Shown here: positions 2,722 through 18,363 of the stretch, piece by piece
How positions within the stretch are numbered: position 1 is the first letter of the stretch
Layout of the letters: every line of letters starts with the position of its first letter
Assembly (NCBI RefSeq): GCF_001556515.1
Contig: NZ_LSJA01000369.1
Span: forward strand, 1 to 18,363
Source of the DNA: Caulobacter sp. CCH9-E1
Lineage (GTDB): Bacteria > Pseudomonadota > Alphaproteobacteria > Caulobacterales > Caulobacteraceae
DNA: 18,363 bases
Direction: 5' to 3'
The notes under the pieces: generated by a model
Seen by the model: the letters and a program-made list of their open reading frames with translations, nothing else
What the model was told of the DNA's origin: nothing
The model's database searches: none
Translations under genes and position numbers: made by a program

Positions 2722-2960
2722 GTTAGGGTCGCGTCAGCCATGGCCCGCCCGCCGATTGGGTCGTGAATATCGGACACATAGACGACAGAGCGCTCTTTGA
2801 TAGGGCCTCTCCCCCGCGCTGGGCACTTAGCCCAAGTGCTTGCACGCCCCTTACGCCGTGGCGCGCGCCGCGACGTGCTGGCCACGGGAGGCTCTCACAC
2901 ATTGACGAGGTGGGGCCCGACAGCCGGCTGCTCGTTTAGGATTTATTTACCATACGCCTG

Positions 2961-2976
2961 GATGAAAGTTTTCATC
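2961..2976. promoter_or_regulatory. palindrome upstream of parA (operator candidate)
   Basis: GATGAAA-GT-TTTCATC has perfect 7-bp arms around a 2-bp spacer in an AT-rich stretch about 75-90 bp ahead of the parA start. ParA proteins of this type carry an N-terminal helix-turn-helix and commonly repress their own operon, so this is a plausible site for it. The binding partner is inferred. Confidence 0.45.
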
Positions 2977-2998
2977 TTTGTTTTTGGCTAAATTCATT

Positions 2999-3025
2999 CA
3001 AACCTGCTCTCTCAGCCCAGGTTTG
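2999..3025. repeat. inverted repeat in the parA leader
   Basis: CAAACCTG and CAGGTTTG are perfect 8-bp arms separated by 11 bp. The feature ends 26 bp before the parA ATG. It could form a hairpin in the leader RNA or be a second operator. Confidence 0.4.
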
Positions 3026-3051
3026 GCGATTCACAGTGGGGACGGCGACAA

Positions 3052-4260
3052 ATGGATTCGATCGTGACCGAAGCGGATCGGATTGGCCAATTGGCCAACG
3101 CCGGCGAGCAAATGGTTGAGCGGCTTCGTCGAACAGCGTTTCTCCCCGGGCAGACCAAGAGCTTGGATGTTCGTATCGGCATCGCTGAGGCCGCCGAGCT
3201 ACTGGGATGCTCGTCCAATCGAATCCGGATGGCCGAACAAGATGGTCGCCTCCCCTCCCCGCCTGAGTCCGAGAGCGGTCGCCGGATTGGCTATGATATC
3301 CCCGCCCTCTTGAACATGCGGCAGGTCTTGGGCGCCTCACCGCGACGTGGGCCTAACGATCCACCGTCCATAATCACGGTTCAGAATTTTAAGGGCGGCG
3401 TTGGGAAGTCGACGGTTACGACGCACCTGGCTCACTATCTCGCCGTCGCTGGCTATCGCGTGCTCGTGGTCGACTGCGATAGCCAGGCCACGACCACGAC
3501 GCTCTTCGGCTTCAACCCTCACTTCGCCATACGGCGGGAGGAGACCCTCTATCCGTACCTGTCGATAGAGCCCACCCAAGACGATCTGGCCTATGCGGTT
3601 AAAAAAACCGTGTGGCCAAACGTCGACCTTATCCCCTCGAACCTGCAGATGTTCGACATCGAATATGAGCTCGCCGCGGCGGGAACTGGCGGTGGCGGGG
3701 TTCTGGCCTCACGGTTCCGGAAGCTCCGCGAGGGTCTCTTTGAACTGGCCCAGGACTACGACGTGGTTCTGCTGGATCCACCGCCGGCGCTGGGGACAAT
3801 TTCGCTTGCCGTCATGCAGGCGGCCAATGCGCTCTTGGTCCCCTTGGCGGCGACGACGCCAGATTTCTGCTCGACCGTTCAGTTTCTGTCGATGATGGAC
3901 CAGGTCATCGGTCAGCTCACCGCAGCAGGCATCACCGTCGAGTACGACTTCTGCCGGCTGATATGCTCCAAGTTCAACGCCAATGACCCCAGCCAAGACA
4001 TGGTCCAGCGCGTCATGGATCAGGCCTTTGGTCCCGCCCTTCTGCCCATCCCCATCCTCGAGTCGGCTGAGATCAGTCACGCCGCTCTTCGGATGATGAC
4101 GGTGTATGAACTGGAAAGGCCGATCGGAACGCCAAGGACCCACAAGCGCTGCCGCTCCAATCTTGATGAAGCGCTTTCGCAGGTGGAACAGCTTGTCCGC
4201 CGCCGCTGGGGTCGTCCCTTGGTCCAACCAGCCCCCTCGCTGGCCGCAGTGACCGCCTGA
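3052..4260 (+). CDS. parA: plasmid partition ATPase ParA with N-terminal HTH
   Basis: This Walker-type ATPase drives plasmid segregation together with ParB and parS. Residues about 40-95 form a MerR-like helix-turn-helix (IGIAEAAELLGCSSNRIRMA), typical of long type Ia ParA proteins that also autorepress. The deviant Walker A motif KGGVGKST is at 114-121, preceded by the usual beta strand ending IITVQNF. Motif A' VVDCDSQAT has D141, and Walker B VVLLDPPPALG has D242. The length (402 aa) fits type Ia and RepA-like ParA proteins. It starts at ATG 3052 after a weak GGGGAC sequence. It is 19 bp upstream of parB in the same direction and appears co-transcribed. A perfect 16-bp palindrome (3083-3098) lies inside its first codons. 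The gene looks complete. Confidence 0.95.
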   Translation: MDSIVTEADRIGQLANAGEQMVERLRRTAFLPGQTKSLDVRIGIAEAAELLGCSSNRIRMAEQDGRLPSPPESESGRRIGYDIPALLNMRQVLGASPRRGPNDPPSIITVQNFKGGVGKSTVTTHLAHYLAVAGYRVLVVDCDSQATTTTLFGFNPHFAIRREETLYPYLSIEPTQDDLAYAVKKTVWPNVDLIPSNLQMFDIEYELAAAGTGGGGVLASRFRKLREGLFELAQDYDVVLLDPPPALGTISLAVMQAANALLVPLAATTPDFCSTVQFLSMMDQVIGQLTAAGITVEYDFCRLICSKFNANDPSQDMVQRVMDQAFGPALLPIPILESAEISHAALRMMTVYELERPIGTPRTHKRCRSNLDEALSQVEQLVRRRWGRPLVQPAPSLAAVTA

Positions 4261-4279
4261 GGCGTCTGGAGGAAGCACG

Positions 4280-5392
4280 ATGTCCAAACGCCAATCCGAC
4301 TACCTGAATTCCCTTCTTGGCCCTGATCCGGCCGCTGTGGAGCCCGCGGCGGAGCCGGTGACGTCCGCGCCCCAGCCGGCGGCCGTGAGCAGTCCCGATC
4401 CGATCTCCCCTCCCCTCTCCTCTGCACGTACCGCGCCAGGTATGACCTTGCTCGCGCGAGAGTCCGCCTTGGCCCGGATCGCGGCGGGCGAGGTTAAACA
4501 GGTCACCCAGCTTCTGCTCGACCCAGCGCGCGTGCGGATCTGGGTGGGCAACGCGCGGCATCAGCAAAGCCTGAACGAGGCGGCCTGTCGTGATTTGATC
4601 GACTCTATCCTGGCCGAGGGCGGTCAGAAAGTGCCGGTGGTCGTAAGGCGCGTGTCAGACGACCCGCAGCATGATTACGAGCTCATTGCTGGAACCCGAC
4701 GGCACTGGTCCATCAGCTGGCTGCGGGCCAATAGCTACCCTGATTTACAGCTTCTGGCCCAGGTGCAGTCGCTCGATGATGAGAGCGCGTTTCGGCTCGC
4801 GGACCTTGAGAACCGGGCGCGCAAAGACGTCTCGGATTTTGAACGAGCGAGGAACTATCGCGACGCATTGAAGAGCTATTACGGCGACCGGCAGATCCGG
4901 ATGGCTGAACGCCTCAACCTATCCAAAGGCTGGCTCTCCAAGATGCTCTCGGTCGCGGATATCCCTGACTGGGCTGTTTCAGCATTCTCAGGGCTTGGCG
5001 ATATCCAGCTGAAAACTTGCTACCCGCTCGCCCAACGCATCAAGGCGGTCTCGCAAGCTGACCCAACCGCCTTGAAGCGGATGCAGAAGGAAGCGGCCCG
5101 GCTCAAGCAGGAGCAGCGTTCGCGGCTGGACACGGGGCAGCCACCACTAGGCGCCGCTGAAGTCTCAGACGCCCTCATCAAGGCCGCACAATCGCCTAGC
5201 CAAGAGCAGGAGTCGCTGTTCGCAGCCGACTCGGTGCATGGTCGACGGGCTTTGTCTGTGCTTTCCGCCAATAGGAACGGTGCGACGCTTCGGATCCACG
5301 CGGGGTCAGGCGCAAGCGAGGCCGAACTGTTGAGCCTGGTGGAGCAAGCCTTGGCTTTTCTGCGGTCGCGCGGCCGAGGCTTCGCCGACTAG
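4280..5392 (+). CDS. parB: plasmid partition protein ParB
   Basis: This is the centromere-binding protein that loads at parS and stimulates the ParA ATPase. The N-terminus (about 1-60) is a Pro/Ala-rich, low-complexity arm starting SKRQSDYLNSLLGP, where ParA-interacting residues usually lie. The ParB/Srx CTPase-like domain follows, with the hallmark box ELIAGTRRHW at about 134-143, then LADLENRARKDVSDFERARN. A helix-turn-helix is at about 203-230 (QIRMAERLNLSKGWLSKML). The C-terminal part is helical and ends in a likely dimerisation segment. A clear Shine-Dalgarno sequence (GGAGGAAG) sits 5-6 bases before ATG 4280. Two palindromic parS-like sites follow directly downstream, which supports the role. 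The gene looks intact. Confidence 0.94.
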   Translation: MSKRQSDYLNSLLGPDPAAVEPAAEPVTSAPQPAAVSSPDPISPPLSSARTAPGMTLLARESALARIAAGEVKQVTQLLLDPARVRIWVGNARHQQSLNEAACRDLIDSILAEGGQKVPVVVRRVSDDPQHDYELIAGTRRHWSISWLRANSYPDLQLLAQVQSLDDESAFRLADLENRARKDVSDFERARNYRDALKSYYGDRQIRMAERLNLSKGWLSKMLSVADIPDWAVSAFSGLGDIQLKTCYPLAQRIKAVSQADPTALKRMQKEAARLKQEQRSRLDTGQPPLGAAEVSDALIKAAQSPSQEQESLFAADSVHGRRALSVLSANRNGATLRIHAGSGASEAELLSLVEQALAFLRSRGRGFAD

Positions 5393-5398
5393 GCCTCA

Positions 5399-5420
5399 AA
5401 AGTTTCCCCGGGGAAACTTT
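5399..5420. promoter_or_regulatory. parS-like centromere site 1 (22-bp perfect palindrome)
   Basis: The core GTTTCCCCGGGGAAAC is flanked by AAA and TTT-type bases, giving 22 bp of perfect symmetry that begins 6 bases after the parB stop. The outer GTTTC/GAAAC arms resemble the outer arms of the chromosomal parS consensus (TGTTTCACGTGAAACA), but the centre CCCGGG differs. A 22-bp perfect palindrome is very unlikely by chance in 18 kb. Its location next to parB makes a ParB site the best reading. Confidence 0.75.
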
Positions 5421-5460
5421 GTTCGCGGCCCGCCAGGGTGGCGTGGGCATGGGTGAAGGA

Positions 5461-5478
5461 AGTTTCCCCAGGGAAACT
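5461..5478. promoter_or_regulatory. parS-like centromere site 2
   Basis: AGTTTCCCCAGGGAAACT is the same palindrome as site 1 with one substitution at the centre (G to A), exactly 60 bp further on. The shared arms and exact spacing suggest two ParB-binding sites on nearly the same helical face. It lies 50 bp ahead of the preferred repA start, so ParB binding might also influence repA expression. Confidence 0.7.
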
Positions 5479-5527
5479 CGCGGCGAGGGAAGAGAGACGG
5501 CGCGCTTGTCTGGAACGGTCGAGCATC

Positions 5528-6658
5528 ATGGCTAGCAATACGAGCAAGGGGGCCGTGGAGCAGATCGACCTGTTTCTGCCCTATCTGGCTGATCTGAATC
5601 TCCGAGATCAGCGCGAGATGATGGAAAGGCCCTTCTTCAGCCTTTCGAAAAGCAAGCGCACCAAACCGATCGACTACACCTCTCCCGACGGGAAGGTCTG
5701 GGTCCACGTTTCGGCCAATCCTGATTACGGCATGGCGACCATCTGGGACGCCGATATCCTGATCTACTGCGCCAGCGTCCTGAACGATTTGAAGGAGCGC
5801 CGGGTCAATGAGATCCCTCGCGTCCTGAAGGTCATGCCCTATGACATTCTGCGGAGTATCGGCCGTCCCGTCACGGGCCGCTCATACGAGCTCTTGGGGG
5901 CTGCGCTCGACCGCCTGCAATCGACCACGGTTAAGACCAACATCCGGGCGGATCAAAGGCGAGAGGCGACCTTCTCCTGGCTCGATAGCTGGAGCCAATT
6001 GGTCGATGAAAAGACCGATCGCTCGCGCGGGATCTCGATCGCGCTATCGAGTTGGTTCTACGACGGCGTCCTGATGGCCGGTGGGGTTTTGTCGATTGAT
6101 CGGTCTTACTTCTCAATCACAGGGGGACGCGAGCGCTGGCTCTACAAAGTCGCTCGCAAGCACGCTGGCGGGGCAGGGGAGGACGGCTTTGCGATCGCCC
6201 TTCCGACGCTCTTTGAAAAATCTGGCGCCGAAGGCCAGTATCGCCGGTTCAAGTTTGAAATGACCGCGCTGGTCCGGGAAAACCCTATCCCGGGCTATGA
6301 ACTCTCGCTTGAGCCAGCGGTCACCTCCAAGGAGCCCCTACTACGCATTCGGCGAAAGTCCGTCGAAAAGGCAAAGCCCGTGAGCAAGACGCCGGAGAAT
6401 GCGGCCGCTCCGAAGAAAACTGGCTTTACGACGTCCACGCCCAGACCCGTGGAACTGGAGCCGCGTGGCTACTTGACCGATGAGACATTGGCCCACCTTC
6501 GTGAGCACTACAGAGGCTGGGATTTCCACGCCCTGCATAGGGAGTTTCAGACCTGGCTCCATGGTCAGGATGAGCGTCAGCCCGACCGTTATCAGAGCGC
6601 CTTCATCGGCTTTGTGCGCCGCTACCACGAAAAAAACCGCCACCAACTGCGCGGTTAG
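5528..6658 (+). CDS. repA: replication initiator protein RepA (RPA family)
   Basis: This is a plasmid replication initiator of the RPA family (Pfam PF10134), expected to bind the iterons downstream and open the origin. Family signatures run through the protein: EQIDLFLPYL near the N-terminus, RPFFSLSKSKRT, then ATIWDADILIYCASVLND, PYDILRSIGRPVTGRSYELL, LDRLQSTTVKTNIR, FSWLDSW, and SIDRSYFSITGGRERWLYKV followed by ARKHAGG. The C-terminal quarter (after about residue 265) has a Lys/Pro-rich linker and then a separate helical segment ending near KNRHQLRG. A longer in-frame start (GTG 5438) would place the second parS site inside the gene, and its extra residues do not look like the family, so ATG 5528 is preferred although its ribosome site is weak. 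It is about 376 residues and intact. Confidence 0.92.
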   Translation: MASNTSKGAVEQIDLFLPYLADLNLRDQREMMERPFFSLSKSKRTKPIDYTSPDGKVWVHVSANPDYGMATIWDADILIYCASVLNDLKERRVNEIPRVLKVMPYDILRSIGRPVTGRSYELLGAALDRLQSTTVKTNIRADQRREATFSWLDSWSQLVDEKTDRSRGISIALSSWFYDGVLMAGGVLSIDRSYFSITGGRERWLYKVARKHAGGAGEDGFAIALPTLFEKSGAEGQYRRFKFEMTALVRENPIPGYELSLEPAVTSKEPLLRIRRKSVEKAKPVSKTPENAAAPKKTGFTTSTPRPVELEPRGYLTDETLAHLREHYRGWDFHALHREFQTWLHGQDERQPDRYQSAFIGFVRRYHEKNRHQLRG

Positions 6659-6719
6659 CTAGCGGCCGGCTCGTCCGGGGAGGGTGCTTTGCGGCCCGAC
6701 CTCACACCAACCGTTCCCG

Positions 6720-6797
6720 AAATGTCGTGCGGTGCTGGACGGCGGGGCGAGCGGAGCCGCCCACCACGGCACGCAGCGCTAGCGACTGAACGTTTTT
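6720..6797. other. possible hairpin and T-run after repA
   Basis: GGCGG and CCGCC arms, extended by imperfectly matching outer arms (TGCGGTGC versus GGCACGCA), could form a long GC-rich hairpin at about 6728-6776. A run of six T lies at 6792-6797. The T-run is too far from the stem for a textbook intrinsic terminator, so this is only a candidate transcription barrier between repA and the iterons. Confidence 0.3.
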
Positions 6798-6870
6798 TCT
6801 AGGGGAACGTGGCAAAGTGATTCAATCGCGATTTGCCCGCGTGTTCGATTGACCTAACTTTGCCAGGCTT

Positions 6871-6974
6871 CGACACATCAGGAACGCAAGACGACACCTC
6901 AGGAACAGCCTATCGACACTCCAGGAACGCCACGCTCGATACATCAGGAACGAAAGCCCGATACTCCAGGAACG
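6871..6974 (+). repeat. five iterons of the replication origin
   Basis: Five direct copies of a 16-bp unit with consensus CGAYACNYCAGGAACG start at 6871, 6892, 6914, 6937 and 6959, with steps of 21, 22, 23 and 22 bp (two helical turns). Copies alternate slightly between CATCAGG, CCTCAGG and CTCCAGG cores, and copy 2 ends in ACA rather than ACG. This spacing is characteristic of iterons bound by an initiator on one face of the helix. They lie about 210 bp after repA. Confidence 0.88.
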
Positions 6975-6975
6975 C

Positions 6976-6984
6976 TGTGGATAG
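6976..6984 (-). promoter_or_regulatory. DnaA box-like site beside the iterons
   Basis: TGTGGATAG is, on the minus strand, CTATCCACA, one base away from the DnaA consensus TTATCCACA. It sits 2 bases after the last iteron, the usual arrangement in iteron origins where the host DnaA helps open the duplex. Confidence 0.65.
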
Positions 6985-7127
6985 ATTCTTCCTTGGATTC
7001 TGGACCATTAGCGCGCTGAAGCCGCCCTTAACTCTTAAACTTTTTCTTCTCTAACCCTCTAACGCCCATGAGATGTCGAAAGATCTGAAGGGAAGATTAG
7101 GTCGCAAAAGGACGTTCCGCGCTGAGC

Positions 7128-8748: not shown

Positions 8749-10230
8749 TCAGCCGCCAGCCAAAGCTCGTGCGACGGTGACCATCGCCCATGTATCTCTC
8801 GCACAATAGGCCCTGAGGCCCTCTTCCAGCGCCTTGCGCCGCTCGGGATCGCAGGCCGGATCCGCAGCCTCGAACCATGCCGCCTGTGCATCGCCCCCGT
8901 GCTTCACTGCGAGAGCGCCATAGTCGAGTTCGGATGCAATAGTGGGTAGCACCGCCTTGATGGACCAGCTGCCGCGCTGGTCACGGTGATACCAGTGGTT
9001 GCGGGCGACCGGCAGGAGATCGACTGTAGCCTCGGCCATCGCCTCGAGGCGCGAAGTAAGATCAGGAAAAGCCTCCGCCAGCTCGCGAAGCACGCCACGC
9101 TCGAAGGACGCAAAATAGGCGATGATCGTCGCGCCTTCAGGGATGAGCTCGATCAGCGCCTCAGCGCACGCTCGTCGGGGATCGTTACCGTCGACGTTCA
9201 GGAACTCATGATGGGTTATGCGCCCGTCGTGCTGCTCGAGATGGAGCGAGAACTGGAACGGGATCTGTTGGAAAGGTCTAGTCCCGACCCACCGCGGAAT
9301 CGCCGGAGCCACGGTCTCGAAGTCGAGCCAGGCGCGCGGCCAACCCCATGCGGCCATTGCCTTGCGAGCACCCTCAGCGTCGTGGAATGGCACGCCGTCA
9401 CGGGTCGCGGCGAGGACCCTTGCCTGCTTGTCGGTGAGATCGGCTTCGATCAGATCAAGCAGGTTATCGATCCCGCGCTCCAACCAGGGCTTGCCGCCGC
9501 CGTGGGGAAGCACGGTCACGGGCCATTCAGGCCCGGGCTGAAGGTGGCGGCTGCAATAGGCGGCGAACTCGCAAGCGAAAGGTTTGTTACAATGATCGCC
9601 CATGTCGCGCGAAGGCTCGCCACGGGACAAAATAGAGCGTGCTTCGGCCACCAATGCTGGGCGGCTGGCGATGGCGCCTTCCAGTTCGCCGAGCAAATCG
9701 ACGTCAGTGAACAGTCCAGCGTAATCGCCCTCCCGCGACAACACGAAGCTTGTGTCGATATGGCGGATAGCAGCGCGCGTCAGATCAACTCCCGCCTCGC
9801 GCATCACCCAAACTTGCGTGGCGAGATCGCTGCGATGATAATCCTTGACCTCGCCCGAGCTCTTGACCTCCGCAGCTGACCATCCCCCGGACGCGAGCCG
9901 TTCCAGCAGATCAACCCGCACCAGCACACCATCGTGCTCGAAGGTCGCCTCGAAAATCGGGCCTGGATGCCTGTTAGCGATCAGAGATGATGTCTGTGCG
10001 ACCGCTTCGGACAGTGACGGTGGATCGACCATTACCCCGCTCGGATGGAGCGCACAGGCAATCTCGCCCACCGCGTTGCCGATCGCAAAACGTGCCTCGG
10101 CGCCATCTGCCCGTTCGGCTAGATCGGGGCGGTGGGTCGAAAGCCACAGCTTCTTTGGGCATTGCTCGAAGGATGTGATCTTCGACTTAGAGAGGCCGAA
10201 GGCGCCGGCGGAATCGATGGTCTGTGTCAT
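8749..10230 (-). CDS. DUF2779 protein: Cas4-like Fe-S nuclease fused to DEDD exonuclease
   Basis: This 493-residue protein of the DUF2779 family (PF11074) joins two nuclease-like halves. In the N-terminal half, C24 (SKSKITSFEQCPKKLWL) and the trio C214, C220 and C226 form the four-cysteine pattern that holds a 4Fe-4S cluster in Cas4/AddB-type nucleases. Between them lie D107 (VRVDLLE), E121-V-K123 (AAEVKSS) and Q139, the usual PD-(D/E)XK residues. In the C-terminal half, DFET (D303, E305), D404 (ATVDLL) and D479 (AYCARDTWAM) suggest a DnaQ-like DEDD exonuclease, though the second motif (AYFASFERGVL) has Glu where Asp is usual. Both halves look intact, so DNA or RNA end processing is likely; the biological role of the family is not settled. 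It is monocistronic and divergent from the gene at 10324. Confidence 0.85.
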   Translation of the reverse strand: MTQTIDSAGAFGLSKSKITSFEQCPKKLWLSTHRPDLAERADGAEARFAIGNAVGEIACALHPSGVMVDPPSLSEAVAQTSSLIANRHPGPIFEATFEHDGVLVRVDLLERLASGGWSAAEVKSSGEVKDYHRSDLATQVWVMREAGVDLTRAAIRHIDTSFVLSREGDYAGLFTDVDLLGELEGAIASRPALVAEARSILSRGEPSRDMGDHCNKPFACEFAAYCSRHLQPGPEWPVTVLPHGGGKPWLERGIDNLLDLIEADLTDKQARVLAATRDGVPFHDAEGARKAMAAWGWPRAWLDFETVAPAIPRWVGTRPFQQIPFQFSLHLEQHDGRITHHEFLNVDGNDPRRACAEALIELIPEGATIIAYFASFERGVLRELAEAFPDLTSRLEAMAEATVDLLPVARNHWYHRDQRGSWSIKAVLPTIASELDYGALAVKHGGDAQAAWFEAADPACDPERRKALEEGLRAYCARDTWAMVTVARALAGG

Positions 10231-11306: not shown

Positions 11307-11486
11307 GGGCCGTGGCCTGTGTACACCGACCAACTGGACGGCCAACCACGTGGCGCTGGCTGTTCATGTGTGTTGGCGTAAGGAGATTGGGGCAGGGGGT
11401 CTACCGGATCTCCGAGAGCATAATCGCCATACTGAACTGACCCCCTTATGCACCGGAAGGGCAGGGGCGTAACTTCGGCCGGCTGG

Positions 11487-11505
11487 CCTCGCCGGAGGGG
11501 CGAGG
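11487..11505. repeat. inverted repeat (7-bp arms)
   Basis: CCTCGCC and GGCGAGG are perfect arms around a 5-base loop, in the gene-free region ahead of the transfer operon. It has no T-tract, and the function is unknown. Confidence 0.35.
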
Positions 11506-11893
11506 ATCGACGTCTGGGGTTCGCTCCCGGCTCCACGCGGCCCGTCTCCTGCCGGCCGAGCAGGATCTTGGTCGTGGCTACGTCGGTCTGGTTTCTGCAC
11601 CGAATAGCCGAGCACCCGTGGCCGCCAGTTCACGCGCTCTGTTCATCGCGGACGCCCTAAAGATACTGCCCGATGGACATTCACCTGGTGACGCGCGCAT
11701 GGCACATCTGTCGATTATGGGCGCGGATTTCGCTGGCGCTGGTAAGGCCACGAGGCCCACGGCGAATACCCTGACAACCCGCATTTTTCCCGTGACCGTC
11801 AGGCCAGGCGGTCCGTCATAAGGATAGGGCACGTCACGCACAGCTGCGCTTTTTCTAAGTTATTGAACAATCGGAATAAAATTTTGCATGTAA

Positions 11894-11989: not shown

Positions 11990-12370
11990 ATGGGCGATAG
12001 CGCAAGACGCAACGGGAAGATCACCTTCGCCGTCAAGCTCAACCCCGAAACAGCGGACCGGGCCCGGATCGACGCCGAACGCCTCGGCATGAAGATCTCT
12101 GATTACATGGACATGCTGATCACGCGGCGGGGCGTGAACAACTACCAGTATTTCGCGCAGCAAGCGGCGTTCCAGTCGTTCGTCAGCGCCGCCCTGGTGG
12201 TCCATCTTTCCCGCAAGGCGATGTCGAAGGACGAGCTCGCGGCGGCGCAAAAGTTCGTCTATCAGGCCGCCGCCACACTGTTTGGTCAGCCGCCGGAACG
12301 CCCGCCAGAGATCGGGGAGGACCCTGACGATCTCGACCCCCGTCTGACGGCCCTTTTCGAGGCCTTCTAG
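11990..12370 (+). CDS. ribbon-helix-helix relaxosome accessory protein, TrwA-like
   Basis: The 126-residue product has an N-terminal ribbon-helix-helix pattern: a strand KITFAVKLN, then PETADRARIDAERLGMK, ISDYMDMLITRR. A helical C-terminal half and an acidic, Pro-rich tail follow. It heads an operon in the order RHH, coupling protein, MobF relaxase, the same as trwA-trwB-trwC of R388, where TrwA (121 residues, RHH) binds oriT, stimulates the coupling protein and represses the operon. The similarity is in size, fold and position; I do not claim close sequence homology. A good ribosome site (GGAAGG) precedes ATG 11990 by 7 bases, which argues against the longer GTG start at 11948. Confidence 0.72.
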   Translation: MGDSARRNGKITFAVKLNPETADRARIDAERLGMKISDYMDMLITRRGVNNYQYFAQQAAFQSFVSAALVVHLSRKAMSKDELAAAQKFVYQAAATLFGQPPERPPEIGEDPDDLDPRLTALFEAF

Positions 12371-12440
12371 GACGGGTAGAACAGACCTGTGACTGCGCCC
12401 GAACGCCCCTTGAGCTCCTCTCGCTCAGGGACGTTCGATC

Positions 12441-14267
12441 ATGGCTCGAATCCATCGCGGCAAGAGCGAGGCTTGGCTTCGCGGCGGCCAGACCTTTTCC
12501 CACAATGTCGACATGGTCATGGAGGTGCTCGGCCGCCTGGTGATCCTGTCCCTGGTGTGGGGCATGGTGTGCCTCTGGCTGGGCAATAATTCGTCGTCCG
12601 ACCTGGAGCAGGAGTACGGTCTCCAGGGCGTCCAGGCGGCCCTGTTCGACAAGCTAGGCCACCCGCTTCCCGACAAGCTCTCTATCAAGGGTCTCGACGG
12701 GGTCGAGCGCACCTACAAGAACGCCGAGGTGCCGAAGCTGAAATGGCTTCAGACCTCGCGACAGACTTTCGTCTGGGCGACCTACCGCTTCAAGAAACTC
12801 TTCCCCCACGCGACGCTGCAGGACCTCCTGCAGATGTTCTTCGGGCCGGTCGAACTGCTTGAGTGGCTGGTTCGCGGCACGCCCGCCGCCGCGATCAAAA
12901 GCGTGCTGATGACGGGCCTCAACAGCCTCACGCACCTGGTCGGCGACCGCTCGACCTTCTCCATCCGCGAATGGGTCAACGCCCCGAAAGGCGAGGGCGG
13001 CTTCCTCTTTCTCTCGGCGCCCGAAACGCACATCGACAGCCTGCGTCCCCTGTTGTCGTTCTGGGTCGAATTGGTGGTCGGCGCCTTGCTCAGCCGACCC
13101 GAGGACAACCGGCCCGAGACGTGGGTGATGCTCGACGAGTTTTCCTCGCTCGGCCAGATCGACAGCCTGGCGACAGGCCCGGTGCGCCTGCGCAAGTACA
13201 ACGGCGCCATGGTGCTTGGCCTCCAGCAATTCAGCCAGCTCCAGGACATCTACGGCCACGAGACGGCCACCACGATCATCGGCCAGTGCGCGCACAAACT
13301 GATCCTGCGTTGCCAGGATCCCGACACCGCCAAGTTCATGAGCGACCAGCTCGGCCGCGCCCAGATGCGTCGAGTGGACGAGAGCATTTCGTTCGGGGCG
13401 AACTCCCAGCGCGATGGCGTGAACATCAACGCGAGTGAAGAGCTAGAACCCGTCGCCCTGCCCGAAGACCTGATGAACCAGCCCGCCATGCAGGGCTTCA
13501 TCAAGGTGGCCTCGGCGCGGGAAGGCGAGGCGTTCCCGGCCGCCACCCTGAAGTTCCGGTACAAGCCCCGCCCGAAGATCGCCGAGGGCATGGAAGAGCG
13601 CCCGGGACCGACCCCGACGGAGCTCTTCCTGGAGGCGCTGCAGGAGAGCAGCGAACTCATCCGCCAAGCTGAAATGGAGCGGGAAGCGGGGGAGGGGCCG
13701 CCAGCCCTGGAGGAGACCGCCGACAACGTAGTTCGGCCGATGTACGACCCCAAGACGGGCGAGATCGTTGTCGTCCGCCCGATGTTCGATCCCAAGACCG
13801 GAGAGATCTTCGAGCCGGACGCTCCCGAGCCCGAAGCCGCTGAGCCCCAGGAGACCGCGCCGCCGGCGGAGAGCGTCGCGGCCAATGACGAGGGCGGGCC
13901 GCGCATGGTCACGCCCGACGAGCGTAATCCAGGCGATGGAAGATCCACTGACCCGGCGGGCGCGAACGAGCCCGTCCTGCCCGAATTAGCCGCCAGTGGA
14001 AACCTCGATCGCACCAGCAAACTCGCGGTCGACGCCTACCGCTCAAGGCTCGACCAGCAGGAGCATCAGCGCGCCTTCATGCAGCTCTATGACCGGGTGC
14101 GCCGCGACATGGAGCAGGCCAACCCGCTCAACGGGATCGCGGTTTGGAAGGGCCGCGAAGGACAACGCAAAGGACCGGCCGACGCATGGCCGTTCGTATC
14201 CAAGGACCGCACTGGCGATCGTGACGAACCCGACGGCTCAGACAGCTTCTGGACGCCGCAGTCATGA
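12441..14267 (+). CDS. TraD/VirD4-type coupling protein with internal deletion of Walker A
   Basis: Coupling proteins link the relaxosome to the secretion channel with an inner-membrane ATPase. The N-terminus (MARIHRGKSEAWLRGGQTFS) and one membrane helix at about 32-48 are family-like, followed by a periplasm-type segment to about residue 102. The frame then jumps to RQTFVWATYRFKKL, TLQDLLQMFFG, RGTPAA, TFSIREWV and the Walker B box WVMLDEFSSLG (about 228-238), then LGLQQFSQLQDIYG. The second membrane helix and the whole Walker A stretch that should lie between are absent; no GxxGxGK[ST] occurs anywhere. The C-terminal third is an acidic, Pro-rich tail with a short tandem repeat. At 608 residues it is shorter than relatives I would expect to exceed 700. 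It overlaps the relaxase gene as ATGA. Probably non-functional as a pump. Confidence 0.85.
   Translation: MARIHRGKSEAWLRGGQTFSHNVDMVMEVLGRLVILSLVWGMVCLWLGNNSSSDLEQEYGLQGVQAALFDKLGHPLPDKLSIKGLDGVERTYKNAEVPKLKWLQTSRQTFVWATYRFKKLFPHATLQDLLQMFFGPVELLEWLVRGTPAAAIKSVLMTGLNSLTHLVGDRSTFSIREWVNAPKGEGGFLFLSAPETHIDSLRPLLSFWVELVVGALLSRPEDNRPETWVMLDEFSSLGQIDSLATGPVRLRKYNGAMVLGLQQFSQLQDIYGHETATTIIGQCAHKLILRCQDPDTAKFMSDQLGRAQMRRVDESISFGANSQRDGVNINASEELEPVALPEDLMNQPAMQGFIKVASAREGEAFPAATLKFRYKPRPKIAEGMEERPGPTPTELFLEALQESSELIRQAEMEREAGEGPPALEETADNVVRPMYDPKTGEIVVVRPMFDPKTGEIFEPDAPEPEAAEPQETAPPAESVAANDEGGPRMVTPDERNPGDGRSTDPAGANEPVLPELAASGNLDRTSKLAVDAYRSRLDQQEHQRAFMQLYDRVRRDMEQANPLNGIAVWKGREGQRKGPADAWPFVSKDRTGDRDEPDGSDSFWTPQS
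13728..13808 (+). repeat. tandem 14-residue repeat in the coupling-protein tail
   Basis: The unit VVRPMYDPKTGEI (residues about 430-442) recurs at once as VVRPMFDPKTGEI (444-456) with a period of 14 residues. The DNA copies have diverged at third positions, so the duplication is not recent. It lies in an otherwise acidic, disordered tail. Confidence 0.75.
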
Positions 14268-17200
14268 TGACGCCTTCGCGGATCCGCAGCGCGGCCGGCG
14301 CGGCCGATTACTACGCCAAGGATGACTATTACATCGAGGGCGAGGCGGGGGCGCCGAACCTCGAATGGGGCGGCCAGGGCGCGGCCGATCTTGGGCTCAA
14401 GGGCAAGGTCGACGCCAAGGATCTACGCGCCATCCTGGATGGTCGAAATCCCGACCCGAACGGGCCCGCGCTTACCGACAGCGAGAACAAGGCCAAGCAT
14501 CACGCGGGGTGGGATTTCACCTTCGCGGTGCCCAAGTCCGTCACGCTCCTGGTGATCGCCGCCGAGAAGCATGACCCCGAGCTGGCCGACCGCCTGAAGG
14601 GCCACGTCATGGCGGCCAACAAGGCGATGATGTCCTACCTCGAGGCCAACCACGCCGTGACCCGGGTTCGCGACGAGCAGGGGGCGGTGCGGGAGGTTCA
14701 GACGAAGAACCTTGTCTATGGCTCCGTGATGCACGTCACGACGCGCGGCGGGGATCCGCACCTGCACGTCCACAACCCCATCGCCAACGTGACCAAGAAC
14801 CCCGAAACCGGGAAGTTCGGCGCGCTCGAAACACGCCACATGTACAAGTGGCAGAAGAACACATCCCTCGTGGGCGCGCGCGAGCTGCAATCGCGGCTGA
14901 TGGCTGAAGGCTACAGCATCGAACGCAAGGGCGAACTGGCATGGGAAATCGCCGGGACGAGCACGAAGCTCATCCAGGAGTTCAGTAGCCGCAGTCGCGA
15001 GATCAACGCCGGCGCCGAGGCCCTGGCCGCCGAACGCGGCGTCTCATCGGTCTCCGACGAACAGCGCACGATGATCCAGAAGCAGACCCGCAAGACCAAG
15101 GGCGATGTCGTGCGCGAGGTCCTGCAGAAGGAATGGTCGGAACGCGCCGAGAAAGTCGATCCCGGCGCGCTCGCACAGCAGGTCGCGGCCCGCACACTCG
15201 AACGCGGACAGGACGTGACGGCCAAGCTCATCGGAGCCATCAATCCTGCTATCGCCAAGTTGCGAAAGATGGTTCGCGACCACAACGGCTCGAATGCGCG
15301 GATCGACCTTTACGCCCGCGCTACGAACGATCCAGACAAGGAGGCCCAGGCCGTTGTTTCTCTTGGCCTCCGATCGGCCGAGGAGCGCGACGCCGTTGTC
15401 AGTAAACATCTCATCCTCCAGAAGGCGCTCTTAGCTTCGGACGGCGGCGTCACTTACGATCGCCTAGAAGCTTCGTTCGACCGCTTCGCCAAAGCCGGTC
15501 ACATCGTCGAGGCCGACCGAACGCGGATGGCGGGCGTGACAACGGCTCGCACGCTCGTGCGCGAAACCGCCATCGTCGGTGCGATCGAGCGCGGACGCGG
15601 CGCGGCGCCCGAACTGATCTCCGCCGCGGCGCTCGACAAAGCGATGCGGCCCGAAGCCGTCAAGGATCGGACCGGCCTTTCCCTGACCAAGGGACAAGCG
15701 GCGGGTGCGCGCCACATGTTGCAATCCAGGGACCGTTACGCCGTGGTCGAAGGTCTGGCCGGCGTCGGCAAGACCACGGCGCTACGTGTCACCAACGACG
15801 TCGCCGAGCGCCACGGTCTGCACATCTTCGGCATCGCCAGCCAACACCGCTTCGCCGAGGAGATCCGCAAGGCGGGCGTGGGGGCCGCGACCGTCGAGAG
15901 CTTCCTTCGCAAGGCGGAACGGGCCATGGAAGTCGGCGGCCAAAGGCTCGAGCGACTACGGGCCAATTTCGCCAAGACGATCCTGATGGTCGACGAGTCC
16001 TCGACCCTCACGAACGAAACGATGTACCGCCTGGTCAACGTGGTCGACGGCCTGCGCATCCCAGCCGTGCGCTTCCAGGGCGACCGGGGCCAGCTGGGCG
16101 GTCCCGGCGCGGGCAATCCTTTCAAGGCGATCATTGACCGTAAGGCCGACCGGGTGATGATGGACGAGATCCTTCGCCAATCGCAAGCGCCGACGCACCT
16201 GCGCGATGCGGTCCAGCGCATGGGGGAGGGGAAGTTCAAGGAGGGGTTGACCCTTCTCCGCCCCAACATCGAGAGCGTGGGCCGCGACGCCGACCAGGCC
16301 GCCATCGCAGATCGCGTGGTGTCCGCCTATCTCGAGATGCAGGCCCAGCGGGACACGCAGATCGTTGTTGCCACCAACGCCATGCGCGGCCTCGTTTCGG
16401 CCAGGCTGCGAAACCAGCTGCAGGATAGCGGAGCGCTGTCGCGGAGCGAGCGCGAGGTCGATCGCCTCTACGCCAAGAACCTGTCCCGAGCCGAACAGGT
16501 CGATGCGCGCTTTTATGCGCTTGGCGACAAGATCGTGTCGAACGACGCGTTCGCGGGCGCGGCCACGCCCCGCCACATGGTGGAGACCATTGTTGGGGTC
16601 GATCGCGACAACAACATGCTCAAGGTCCGCAGCGACAAGGGCCGCGAGCGGATGGTCGACCTTAACGACGAGGCCGCGCGCCGCAGCCCGTCCTTTTCCA
16701 CCTTCACCGAGCGCGCCCACCCGATCGCCGCCGGCGATCGGATGGTCTGGGAGGCGCGGTTCTCGGACCGCGGCTATGAGCGGGGCGGCGCCTTCAGCAT
16801 CGTGGCCATGGACAGCAAGGCCGTGACGATCCGCCACGAGGGCCAGGGCGCCATGGCGGGCAAAGTCGAGAAACTCTCGGCCACCGACGAGGCGCTGCGG
16901 TTCTCCGGCTACGGCTACGCCATGACGGCCGACCGGGCCCAGGGCTCGACCTTCAAGGGCGTCGTGTTCGAGATGTCGTCCAAGTTGGGCGAGGCGGCGA
17001 ACATGGCCCGCCTCTACGTGATGAGCTCGCGCCTCGCCGAGGACGCCAAGATGATCACCGACGATCTGTCGCGGACGGCCCAGCTGATCCTCCGCCAGGA
17101 CGGCCAGAAGCTTGTCGCCCTGGACGAGATCCGGAGGGCGGAGGCCGAGCTTCGCAAGGACGACGCCAAGACCGGAGCGACCGCGTCCGAGAAGGACAAG

Positions 17201-17323
17201 GAGTTCTCCAAGTCCATGGACAAAGGCATGTCGAGCTCCGGCGGCGCCGGCGCGGAACGCCCGAAAACCCGCACCAAGGAGCGGGACACGCAGATCCAGC
17301 AGCAACAGAACCTAGGGCTTTAG
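14264..17323 (+). CDS. MobF-family conjugative relaxase-helicase (TrwC/TraI-like)
   Basis: This protein nicks one strand at oriT, stays covalently bound, and unwinds the plasmid for transfer. The relaxase domain (about 1-300) opens with RIRSAAGAADYYAKDDYYIE, giving the tyrosine pairs Y16/Y17 and Y22/Y23 expected for MobF. It continues with WDFTFAVPKSVT (D84) and the metal-binding triad PHLHVHNP (H166, H168, H170). The helicase domain (RecD-like SF1B) has Walker A GLAGVGKTT at about 497-505, Walker B ILMVDESS (D577, E578), FQGDRGQLGGPGAGNPF, and motif VI YAMTADRAQGSTFKG at about 885-899. The C-terminus is a charged, Lys-rich tail. The length of 1019 residues is close to TrwC (966). The start overlaps the coupling-protein stop by 4 bases. 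All key residues appear intact, in contrast to the gene before it. Confidence 0.95.
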   Translation: MMTPSRIRSAAGAADYYAKDDYYIEGEAGAPNLEWGGQGAADLGLKGKVDAKDLRAILDGRNPDPNGPALTDSENKAKHHAGWDFTFAVPKSVTLLVIAAEKHDPELADRLKGHVMAANKAMMSYLEANHAVTRVRDEQGAVREVQTKNLVYGSVMHVTTRGGDPHLHVHNPIANVTKNPETGKFGALETRHMYKWQKNTSLVGARELQSRLMAEGYSIERKGELAWEIAGTSTKLIQEFSSRSREINAGAEALAAERGVSSVSDEQRTMIQKQTRKTKGDVVREVLQKEWSERAEKVDPGALAQQVAARTLERGQDVTAKLIGAINPAIAKLRKMVRDHNGSNARIDLYARATNDPDKEAQAVVSLGLRSAEERDAVVSKHLILQKALLASDGGVTYDRLEASFDRFAKAGHIVEADRTRMAGVTTARTLVRETAIVGAIERGRGAAPELISAAALDKAMRPEAVKDRTGLSLTKGQAAGARHMLQSRDRYAVVEGLAGVGKTTALRVTNDVAERHGLHIFGIASQHRFAEEIRKAGVGAATVESFLRKAERAMEVGGQRLERLRANFAKTILMVDESSTLTNETMYRLVNVVDGLRIPAVRFQGDRGQLGGPGAGNPFKAIIDRKADRVMMDEILRQSQAPTHLRDAVQRMGEGKFKEGLTLLRPNIESVGRDADQAAIADRVVSAYLEMQAQRDTQIVVATNAMRGLVSARLRNQLQDSGALSRSEREVDRLYAKNLSRAEQVDARFYALGDKIVSNDAFAGAATPRHMVETIVGVDRDNNMLKVRSDKGRERMVDLNDEAARRSPSFSTFTERAHPIAAGDRMVWEARFSDRGYERGGAFSIVAMDSKAVTIRHEGQGAMAGKVEKLSATDEALRFSGYGYAMTADRAQGSTFKGVVFEMSSKLGEAANMARLYVMSSRLAEDAKMITDDLSRTAQLILRQDGQKLVALDEIRRAEAELRKDDAKTGATASEKDKEFSKSMDKGMSSSGGAGAERPKTRTKERDTQIQQQQNLGL

Positions 17324-17385
17324 CCGATGGGAAACCTTCTTCGTCAGCCACTCGGCAACCACGTCCCTCAACCGTATTTCAGGCC

Positions 17386-18028
17386 TTGCGTTGTACTCGT
17401 CGTGACAGGGCGCGCCTTTGGCGGCCCGGGAGACGACGATGGTCGCTGGATCTTGGCTTGATGGTCGTCGTCTATATCGTCGGCACCACGGCCTACACCT
17501 CGGGTTTCAAGCGCGAGCCGGTCATGGACGTCTTCGTCTTGGGGGCGCTCTACATGCTCCGCCTGGCCGCCGGCGGGGCGGCGACGAGCGCGCCTCTCAG
17601 CCCGTGGTTCCTCGCGTTCAGCGGCCTCTTCTTCCTGTCCTTGGCCCTAGCCAAGCGGCACACCGAGCTCCGAAAGCAGCTCGACCAGGGAGAGACCCCG
17701 GGAAGGGGCTATCGGCCCTCGGACTGGGCCCTTCACCCTTTCCGCCGGTCTAGGGGCGGGCATGGGCGCGGTCGTGGTGTTTTTGCTCTACGTGGCCTTG
17801 AACGGCGGCTTCGCCGCCCGAACACACGCCGCGTGGGGGCTGTGGGCGATCGGCGCGGTCATGTCGGTGTGGATCTTCAGACTGTGGTTCACCGCGCAGC
17901 GCGGCGAGCTCGATTATGACCCGATCGTTTGGGCCTTCCGCGATCCCATGAGCCGTGTGCTCGGTCTCATCGCCGCTGGGTTCCTGTCCGTCGTCAGAAG
18001 TTTTGGGACAGCCGGGCTGCGGATTTAG
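17386..18028 (+). pseudogene. UbiA-family prenyltransferase remnant, frameshifted and truncated
   Basis: UbiA-family enzymes attach polyprenyl chains in membranes. Here only the second half remains. The first frame gives VVVYIVGTTAYTSGFKREP, then MDVFVLGALYMLRLAAGGAA, a membrane helix WFLAFSGLFFLSLALAKRHTEL, and GRGYRPSDWAL. The similarity continues in another frame from LSAGLGAGMGAVVVFLLYVA, then IFRLWFTAQRGELDYDPIVW and AFRDPMSR. One extra C at about 17734 accounts for the shift: without it the two halves join as DWALTLSAGLG. The N-terminal half, including the first Asp-rich motif, is missing, so the gene was already cut on the left; on the right it runs into sequence adjoining an IS3 element. 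Family members of this type include decaprenyl-phosphate phosphoribosyltransferases, a chromosomal kind of gene, so this marks a junction with non-plasmid DNA. Exact borders are uncertain. Confidence 0.72.
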
Positions 18029-18058
18029 TGGAGGGTTGGCCTCGTCTGGGCTTGAGAT

Positions 18059-18363
18059 TTAGGCGGCGATTTTGCGGTGCTGCAAGCGCCGATGTTCGAG
18101 GGTCTGGCGCTTGACGCTGGCTCGGCGGCGCAGGATGTCGGCGGCCCTGCCGAAGTAGGCGTCGGCGGGGGTCACGTTATCGAGGCTCTCGTGGTAGCGG
18201 GCGTGGTTGTAGTGCTCGATGAAGGCGCCGATCTGGGCTTCCAGGTCGCCGGGCAGGTAGTAATTTTCCAGCAGGATGCGGTTCTTCAGGGTCTGATGCC
18301 AGCGCTCGATCTTGCCCTGGGTCTGGGGATGGTAGGGCGCGCCCCGGACGTGTTTCATCTCCT
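18059..18363 (-). mobile_element. IS3-family transposase, C-terminal part (runs off the window)
   Basis: On the minus strand the frame encodes the end of an IS3-family OrfB integrase. It has MKHVRGAPYHPQTQGKIERW and HQTLKNRILLENYYLPGDLE, which contain the region around the third catalytic acid (E in GKIERWHQ), then YNHARYHESLDNVTPADAYF and GRAADILRRR. The stop is at 18059-18061. The protein continues beyond base 18363, so the first two catalytic acids are not visible. The end of the IS should lie between about 17985 and 18058. The inverted pair CTGTCC (about 17987) and GGGACAG (about 18005) is there, but the terminal repeat cannot be fixed without the other end. Confidence 0.88.

Follow-up and report, generated by a model that had tools for sequence, protein, structure and literature searches.

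The stretch of DNA analysed here (the window, 18,363 nucleotides from Caulobacter sp. CCH9-E1) carries a shortened gene for a conjugative coupling protein of the TrwB/TraD type. According to our analysis, this gene probably represents a decayed coupling protein, left by the ordinary reductive decay of a transfer system, rather than a novel machine. Two in-frame gaps account for the missing parts, and an uninterrupted relaxase gene follows directly. The features that bear on this reading are collected in Table 1.

Table 1. Features of the transfer region (positions in the window; all on the forward strand).
Feature	Position	Strand	Basis
Small gene preceding traD, without Pfam match; L003 counterpart 43% identical (amino acids)	11990..12370	+	ORF, Pfam
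Shortened TrwB/TraD-type coupling protein gene, 608 aa	12441..14267	+	Pfam PF10412 from profile position 109, PF12696, PF02534
Sole membrane helix, residues 25-48	12513..12584	+	Hydropathy; model helix at residues 8-51
Junction of deletion 1, codon 104; 561 bp absent; 2-bp AG microhomology	12750..12752	+	G042/L107 alignment; L003 flanks; P0005
Junction of deletion 2; 11 codons fewer than P0005, 34 bp fewer than G042; CGCG microhomology	12889..12893	+	Alignments with P0005 and G042
Walker B LDEFSSLG, residues 231-238	13131..13154	+	Sequence
C-terminal part, residues 373-608, colinear with P0005 except for substitutions	13557..14264	+	Protein alignment
ATGA overlap, relaxase start within the traD stop	14264..14267	+	Same overlap in L003, same sequence in G042
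MOBF/TrwC relaxase-helicase, 1019 aa, uninterrupted	14264..17323	+	Pfam; structure matches

The shortened gene and its relatives

The reading frame is open throughout, with neither a stop codon nor a frameshift. Its product matches the Pfam family TrwB_AAD_bind (PF10412) with 203 bits against a cutoff of 20.5, and the match, which begins at protein residue 102, covers positions 109 to 377 of the 387 positions of the profile. Since it starts only at profile position 109, the front of the ATPase is absent. Likewise, phmmer aligns the 436-residue TrwB chain only from its residue 155 onwards. The P-loop of VirD4/TrwB-type coupling proteins (PF10412) is missing, as the Walker A pattern G..G.GK[ST] has zero occurrences in the 608-aa protein and the Walker A segment is absent from the alignments. 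Walker B and the second half of the nucleotide-binding domain are present (LDEFSSLG; PF10412 to profile position 377; PF12696), and the all-alpha domain is incomplete, having lost its front part and an 11-aa stretch. Hydropathy predicts one membrane helix in the short form, compared to two in each full-length relative tested (P0005, L003 and the Brevundimonas nasdae protein P0001); two helices are found in most coupling proteins, while some T4CPs are without them. An earlier, sequence-only reading had proposed a single N-terminal helix at about residues 32-48, a jump past the P-loop at residues 100-106, and a Walker B motif without P-loop. All three agree with our results, the hydropathy peak lying at residues 25-48, the break in codon 104, and LDEFSSLG at residues 231-238 of a protein in which the pattern search was negative.

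The nearest full-length relative, the caulobacteral TraD P0005 of 806 residues, is 89% identical over the shared columns, and its colinearity with the window protein is interrupted by only two gaps, which comprise 187 residues (P0005 residues 104-290) and 11 residues (P0005 residues 338-348) and make up the whole difference in length (608 + 187 + 11 = 806). Both deletions are in frame. P0005 differs in that both membrane helices, Walker A and the 11-aa stretch are retained. Based on the TrwB domain limits in the part of PMC7434980 used here and on the alignment of P0005 to TrwB, deletion 1 removes the second membrane helix together with the half of the nucleotide-binding domain that holds Walker A, and reaches about 34 residues into the all-alpha domain. 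An in-frame deletion had been suspected near positions 12740-12760, and this part of the claim stands with the break at 12750-12752, but the second deletion (12889-12893) had been missed.

At the DNA level, the window was compared to contig C3 (189,357 bases) of G042, a genome of the same genus as Caulobacter sp. RHG1 that was recovered in a search of 299 genomes from the family of RHG1. Identity is 94.4% over positions 12751-17442, and the alignment shows a single 561-bp gap at 12750 and a single 34-bp gap at 12889 in the window. Sizing the loss against full-length homologues, as had been suggested earlier, thus yields 187 and 11 residues (P0005) or 561 and 34 bp (G042). The traD gene of G042 retains the 561 bp with the second helix and Walker A (GAPGSGKS), and the relaxase next to it is closely related to that of the window; unlike the window gene, it is broken by a frameshift into open frames of 539 and 538 aa. 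This frameshift, which lies inside the stretch missing from the window, may be biological or a sequencing error. In L107 (G042 C3, 92000-110000) the traD frameshift is found at the site of deletion 2, and TraC is located on the same contig. Caulobacter sp. RHG1 (L003) has an uninterrupted traD of 799 aa. That the gene descends from that of a normal coupling protein through in-frame deletion is supported by these relatives at both the DNA and the protein level, as judged from sequence comparison.

Deletion 2 might alternatively have arisen in a G042-like, frameshifted ancestor and have restored the frame by chance, which would point to selection that keeps the ORF unbroken. The location of the G042 frameshift inside the absent stretch, and the loss of 34 bp relative to G042 but of 11 codons relative to P0005, are consistent with this order of events. 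We nevertheless consider it unlikely, as an intact gene that simply lost 33 bp would require one event fewer and the G042 frameshift may be private or an error.

The short form is rare among the relatives examined. In a protein search that yielded 74 relatives from the 7992 candidates with the most words in common, 70 of the 74 matches retain the 187-aa segment in whole or in part, three (P0019, P0067 and P0068) are listings that start after this segment, and only P0004 shows an internal gap with the N-terminus kept. At least 10 of the 11 residues are present in 72 of the 74 matches, in all but P0004 and the truncated P0019. Homologues of the same length, which had been named, together with a second ATPase supplied elsewhere, as the observation that would speak against a loss, are not widespread among these 74 matches. 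P0019 is a 334-aa TraD listing whose longest contig (5,666 bp) is equal in length to that of P0079, an 84% identical relaxase, and may represent a third lesion or a contig edge. Among the plasmid records listed (up to 5000), none reached 80% query coverage. The short protein as a single query found no relatives in either genome_contigs or viral_contigs, and a search of viral_contigs for the exact junction pattern was likewise negative. Among the 299 genomes, which were drawn evenly from the larger family with at most 4 candidates scored per genome, 18 had a match; none of the 26 match rows spanned both the N-terminal and the ATPase part, and those that began ahead of residue 92 extended no further than residue 111. 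Within the best 80 of 362 genome loci examined in a family-alignment search, L062 was the sole one in which tblastn coverage of the 187-aa segment fell below 100 residues (96/187). A split gene with the 187-aa piece elsewhere in the window was also considered and rejected, since tblastn searches from three relatives found nothing credible (best E 0.75). A literature search yielded no paper on a truncated coupling protein, but one may nevertheless have been published.

P0004 helps to judge whether two strains or a repeat were collapsed at the junctions during assembly; an assembly collapse had been one of the alternatives in the sequence-only reading. This protein likewise has 608 aa and both gaps, differs from the window protein by four substitutions, lies on a contig of 22,233 bp and belongs to a 90% cluster of 10 member sequences. 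Its two gaps combined with four different residues, the identity to G042 of 93-99% in 20 out of 20 steps of 150 bases (12150-15150), across both junctions, and the preservation of the frame by both gaps make an artefact very unlikely. P0004 is the sole other copy that is readable and bears a single source label (lgn), so that its evidence is strong but not final, and the short form is most likely real.

Predicted function of the remnant

In TrwB of R388 (PDB 1e9r/1gl6), the Walker B motif, the second ATPase half and the rear of the all-alpha domain align with the remnant, whereas the second of the two TrwB membrane helices and the Walker A residue K136 have no counterpart in it. TrwB with a mutated Walker A motif is deficient in transfer, and conjugation fails in mutants that lack the membrane domain or the nucleotide-binding domain, according to the portions of the literature drawn on here (PMC7431656; PMC7434980). 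Because certain coupling proteins function without a membrane domain, as stated in the same portions (PMC7431656; PMC7434980), the missing ATPase half outweighs the missing helix. From topology, the presence of only one helix would place the rest of the chain on the periplasmic side. The AlphaFold model of the short form has a mean pLDDT of 66.5 and a pTM of 0.44, compared to 77.7 and 0.64 for P0005 (same 49 sequences each), and the target-normalised Foldseek TM-score to TrwB chains drops from 0.83-0.85 (P0005) to 0.42-0.46 (short form). The missing parts, the mutant precedents and the poorer model together lead us to hold that the protein is probably unable to drive DNA transfer. The loss of DNA pumping that had been claimed from the sequence is likewise what the TrwB mutants predict, and by this analogy the remnant should be unable to pump DNA.

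Coupling proteins of the pIP501 type keep their nucleotide-binding domain. The remnant differs from these in that half of this domain is missing too. What they have in common is a reduced membrane part, as pIP501-type coupling proteins are described without a transmembrane domain in the part of PMC7434980 used here, where the nucleotide-binding domain is also given as the family-defining domain of coupling proteins.

We posit that a TrwB/TraD gene of the 806-aa type, on a caulobacteral MOBF plasmid, probably lost 187 and 11 residues through two in-frame deletions, with 2 and 4 bases, respectively, shared between their ends. The product would neither bind ATP in the way of its family nor place the remaining ATPase half in the cytoplasm. 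The plasmid could then not pump its own DNA and would move only via the coupling protein of another element. A coupling protein provided in trans, by a second plasmid or the chromosome, might also be what made traD dispensable, a scenario that is compatible with decay. Further PF10412 proteins besides traD (two in G042, five in G001, one of the latter a short partial match) and the uninterrupted relaxase point in this direction. We regard it as possible but doubtful, given that coupling proteins require a specific interaction with their own relaxase, as far as the consulted part of the source goes (PMC7431656).

The short form might instead be a functional protein that has been kept, membrane-anchored and either inhibiting the transfer of related plasmids via relaxase or coupling-protein hexamers, or tethering the relaxosome. 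The two gaps are in frame, no stop interrupts the ORF, the same form recurs in P0004 with its cluster, change is biased towards synonymous sites with the C-terminal part retained, and a chimeric TrwB shows negative dominance in the laboratory according to the available part of PMC7431656. However, a one-helix remnant would sit in the periplasm, the front of the ATPase is missing, the predicted model is poorer, and G042 has a different lesion in the same gene. Also against a kept function, residue 332 is Ser in both short forms, but Arg in seven other displayed relatives and in G042, and Lys in P0001 and P0002; this R332 change is a single hint of relaxed constraint. A kept function is in our view quite improbable, and it is very improbable that two in-frame deletions turned a conjugative ATPase into an inhibitor or relaxosome tether that is anchored in the membrane, has been retained and targets coupling proteins of other plasmids. 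While an inhibitory or tethering role is possible, nothing in the data demands it.

Relaxase, reading frame and selection

The sequence-only reading had also stated that the downstream relaxase was left readable, and this is confirmed by its domains, the lack of any interruption and the ATGA overlap. A TrwC-type relaxase overlaps the traD stop and belongs to the MOBF class, with PF08751 at residues 11-297, PF13604 at residues 474-665 and matches to the TraI/TrwC structures. L003 has the same overlap; in G042, the overlap sequence is identical and the closely related relaxase then follows traD. Under the preferred reading of decay, the frame would have been kept either because relaxase translation needs ribosomes that finish traD, in which case a frame-breaking deletion would silence the relaxase too, or because the event is recent.

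Support for such translational coupling is weak. The Shine-Dalgarno energy at the relaxase start (-3.0 kcal/mol) does not rise above the background median (-3.1), so that translation may depend on ribosomes finishing traD. The measure has poor power, since the listed starts of repB (-2.5) and repA (-1.9) and the start of traD itself (-5.2) also score low. The better score of the L003 relaxase start (-5.7) speaks against coupling, as does the G042 frameshift, which, if real, breaks it there. Coupling between traD and the relaxase may thus be the reason why the frame survived, but the frame may alternatively have been kept because the deletion is recent or a function was retained.

Codon comparison between the window and G042 shows 17 nonsynonymous and 36 synonymous differences in the remnant (omega 0.14), two of the 17 being junction codons, and 39 nonsynonymous and 143 synonymous differences in the relaxase (omega 0.077). 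In the second ATPase half there are 2 nonsynonymous (one a junction codon) and 8 synonymous differences. When codons 1-372 are polarised with L003, 4 nonsynonymous and 9 synonymous changes fall on the window branch since G042 and 2 and 7 on the G042 branch, with 7 unresolved. As 76% nonsynonymous changes are expected under drift, the 4:9 ratio indicates that the decay is recent or the remnant constrained. Accelerated evolution of the remnant was rejected, as relative rates are mixed and inconsistent across outgroups, with differences derived in the short form versus the full form of 13:19 (P0006), 12:5 (P0007), 12:5 (P0008) and 9:10 (P0009). Most of the divergence arose under constraint, and the counts would fit constraint before as well as after the deletion. 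In codons 301-640 of the relaxase (window 15164-16183), synonymous divergence from G042 amounts to 0.48, compared to 0.09 in codons 1-300, which suggests mosaic recombination within this gene.

Plasmid setting and implications

The window contains HipBA-like, ParA, ParB, RepA and RepB-family genes. Its par-rep block (2933-7077) shares 80-82% identity with the L003-bearing RHG1 contig, and positions 3052-6658 are without a match in G042. By sequence similarity, the window appears as a mosaic of an RHG1-like par-rep block and a G042-like transfer block. Between backbone and transfer genes lies a DUF2779 protein on the reverse strand (8749-10230) with a weak, below-cutoff Cas4-like match. A short stretch at 11441-11649 has several matches ahead of traD in G042 and could represent iterons or transfer-origin repeats, and the small gene next to traD would be a candidate for an accessory relaxosome role. 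At the far end (17386-18363), a partial UbiA-like ORF, below the Pfam cutoff, adjoins a fragment of an IS3-type transposase; positions 17440-17985 are 94% identical to G042, where they lie about 1.8 kb farther from the relaxase. A circular window was rejected, as the two ends share no exact overlap of 20-1999 bases and a comparison of the terminal 3 kb gave no credible match.

No channel genes of an MPF_F conjugative plasmid, such as TraC, were found among the 16 window genes searched with Pfam (of 70 ORFs of at least 80 aa), the window being 18 kb and part of a plasmid. TraC, a component of an F-type channel, occurs on the same record as a full-length traD in the Brevundimonas nasdae plasmid W01 and in pASTEX02 (W02), and on the same contig as traD in G042, G004 and G005. 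Within G001-G008, it is located on another contig in 4/8 genomes and was not found in 2/8 (G001, which is RHG1, and G007). The family therefore spans plasmids that carry channel genes as a set and at least one draft genome that does not, as in the reductive evolution of mobilizable elements described in the part of PMC11389934 used here. With the reductive 'hitchers' among mobilizable plasmids, as this part presents them (PMC11389934), the window, which covers only part of its plasmid, has an uninterrupted relaxase and a defective transfer ATPase in common.

The profile score of the shortened gene is still far above the cutoff, and such remnants could therefore inflate counts of transmissible plasmids. 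The locus looks like an intermediate of plasmid mobility loss caught in the act, with the pump disabled in frame and the relaxase readable, and its close relatives are either intact or carry another lesion. It may serve to test whether the survival of deletions in transfer operons is shaped by translational coupling.
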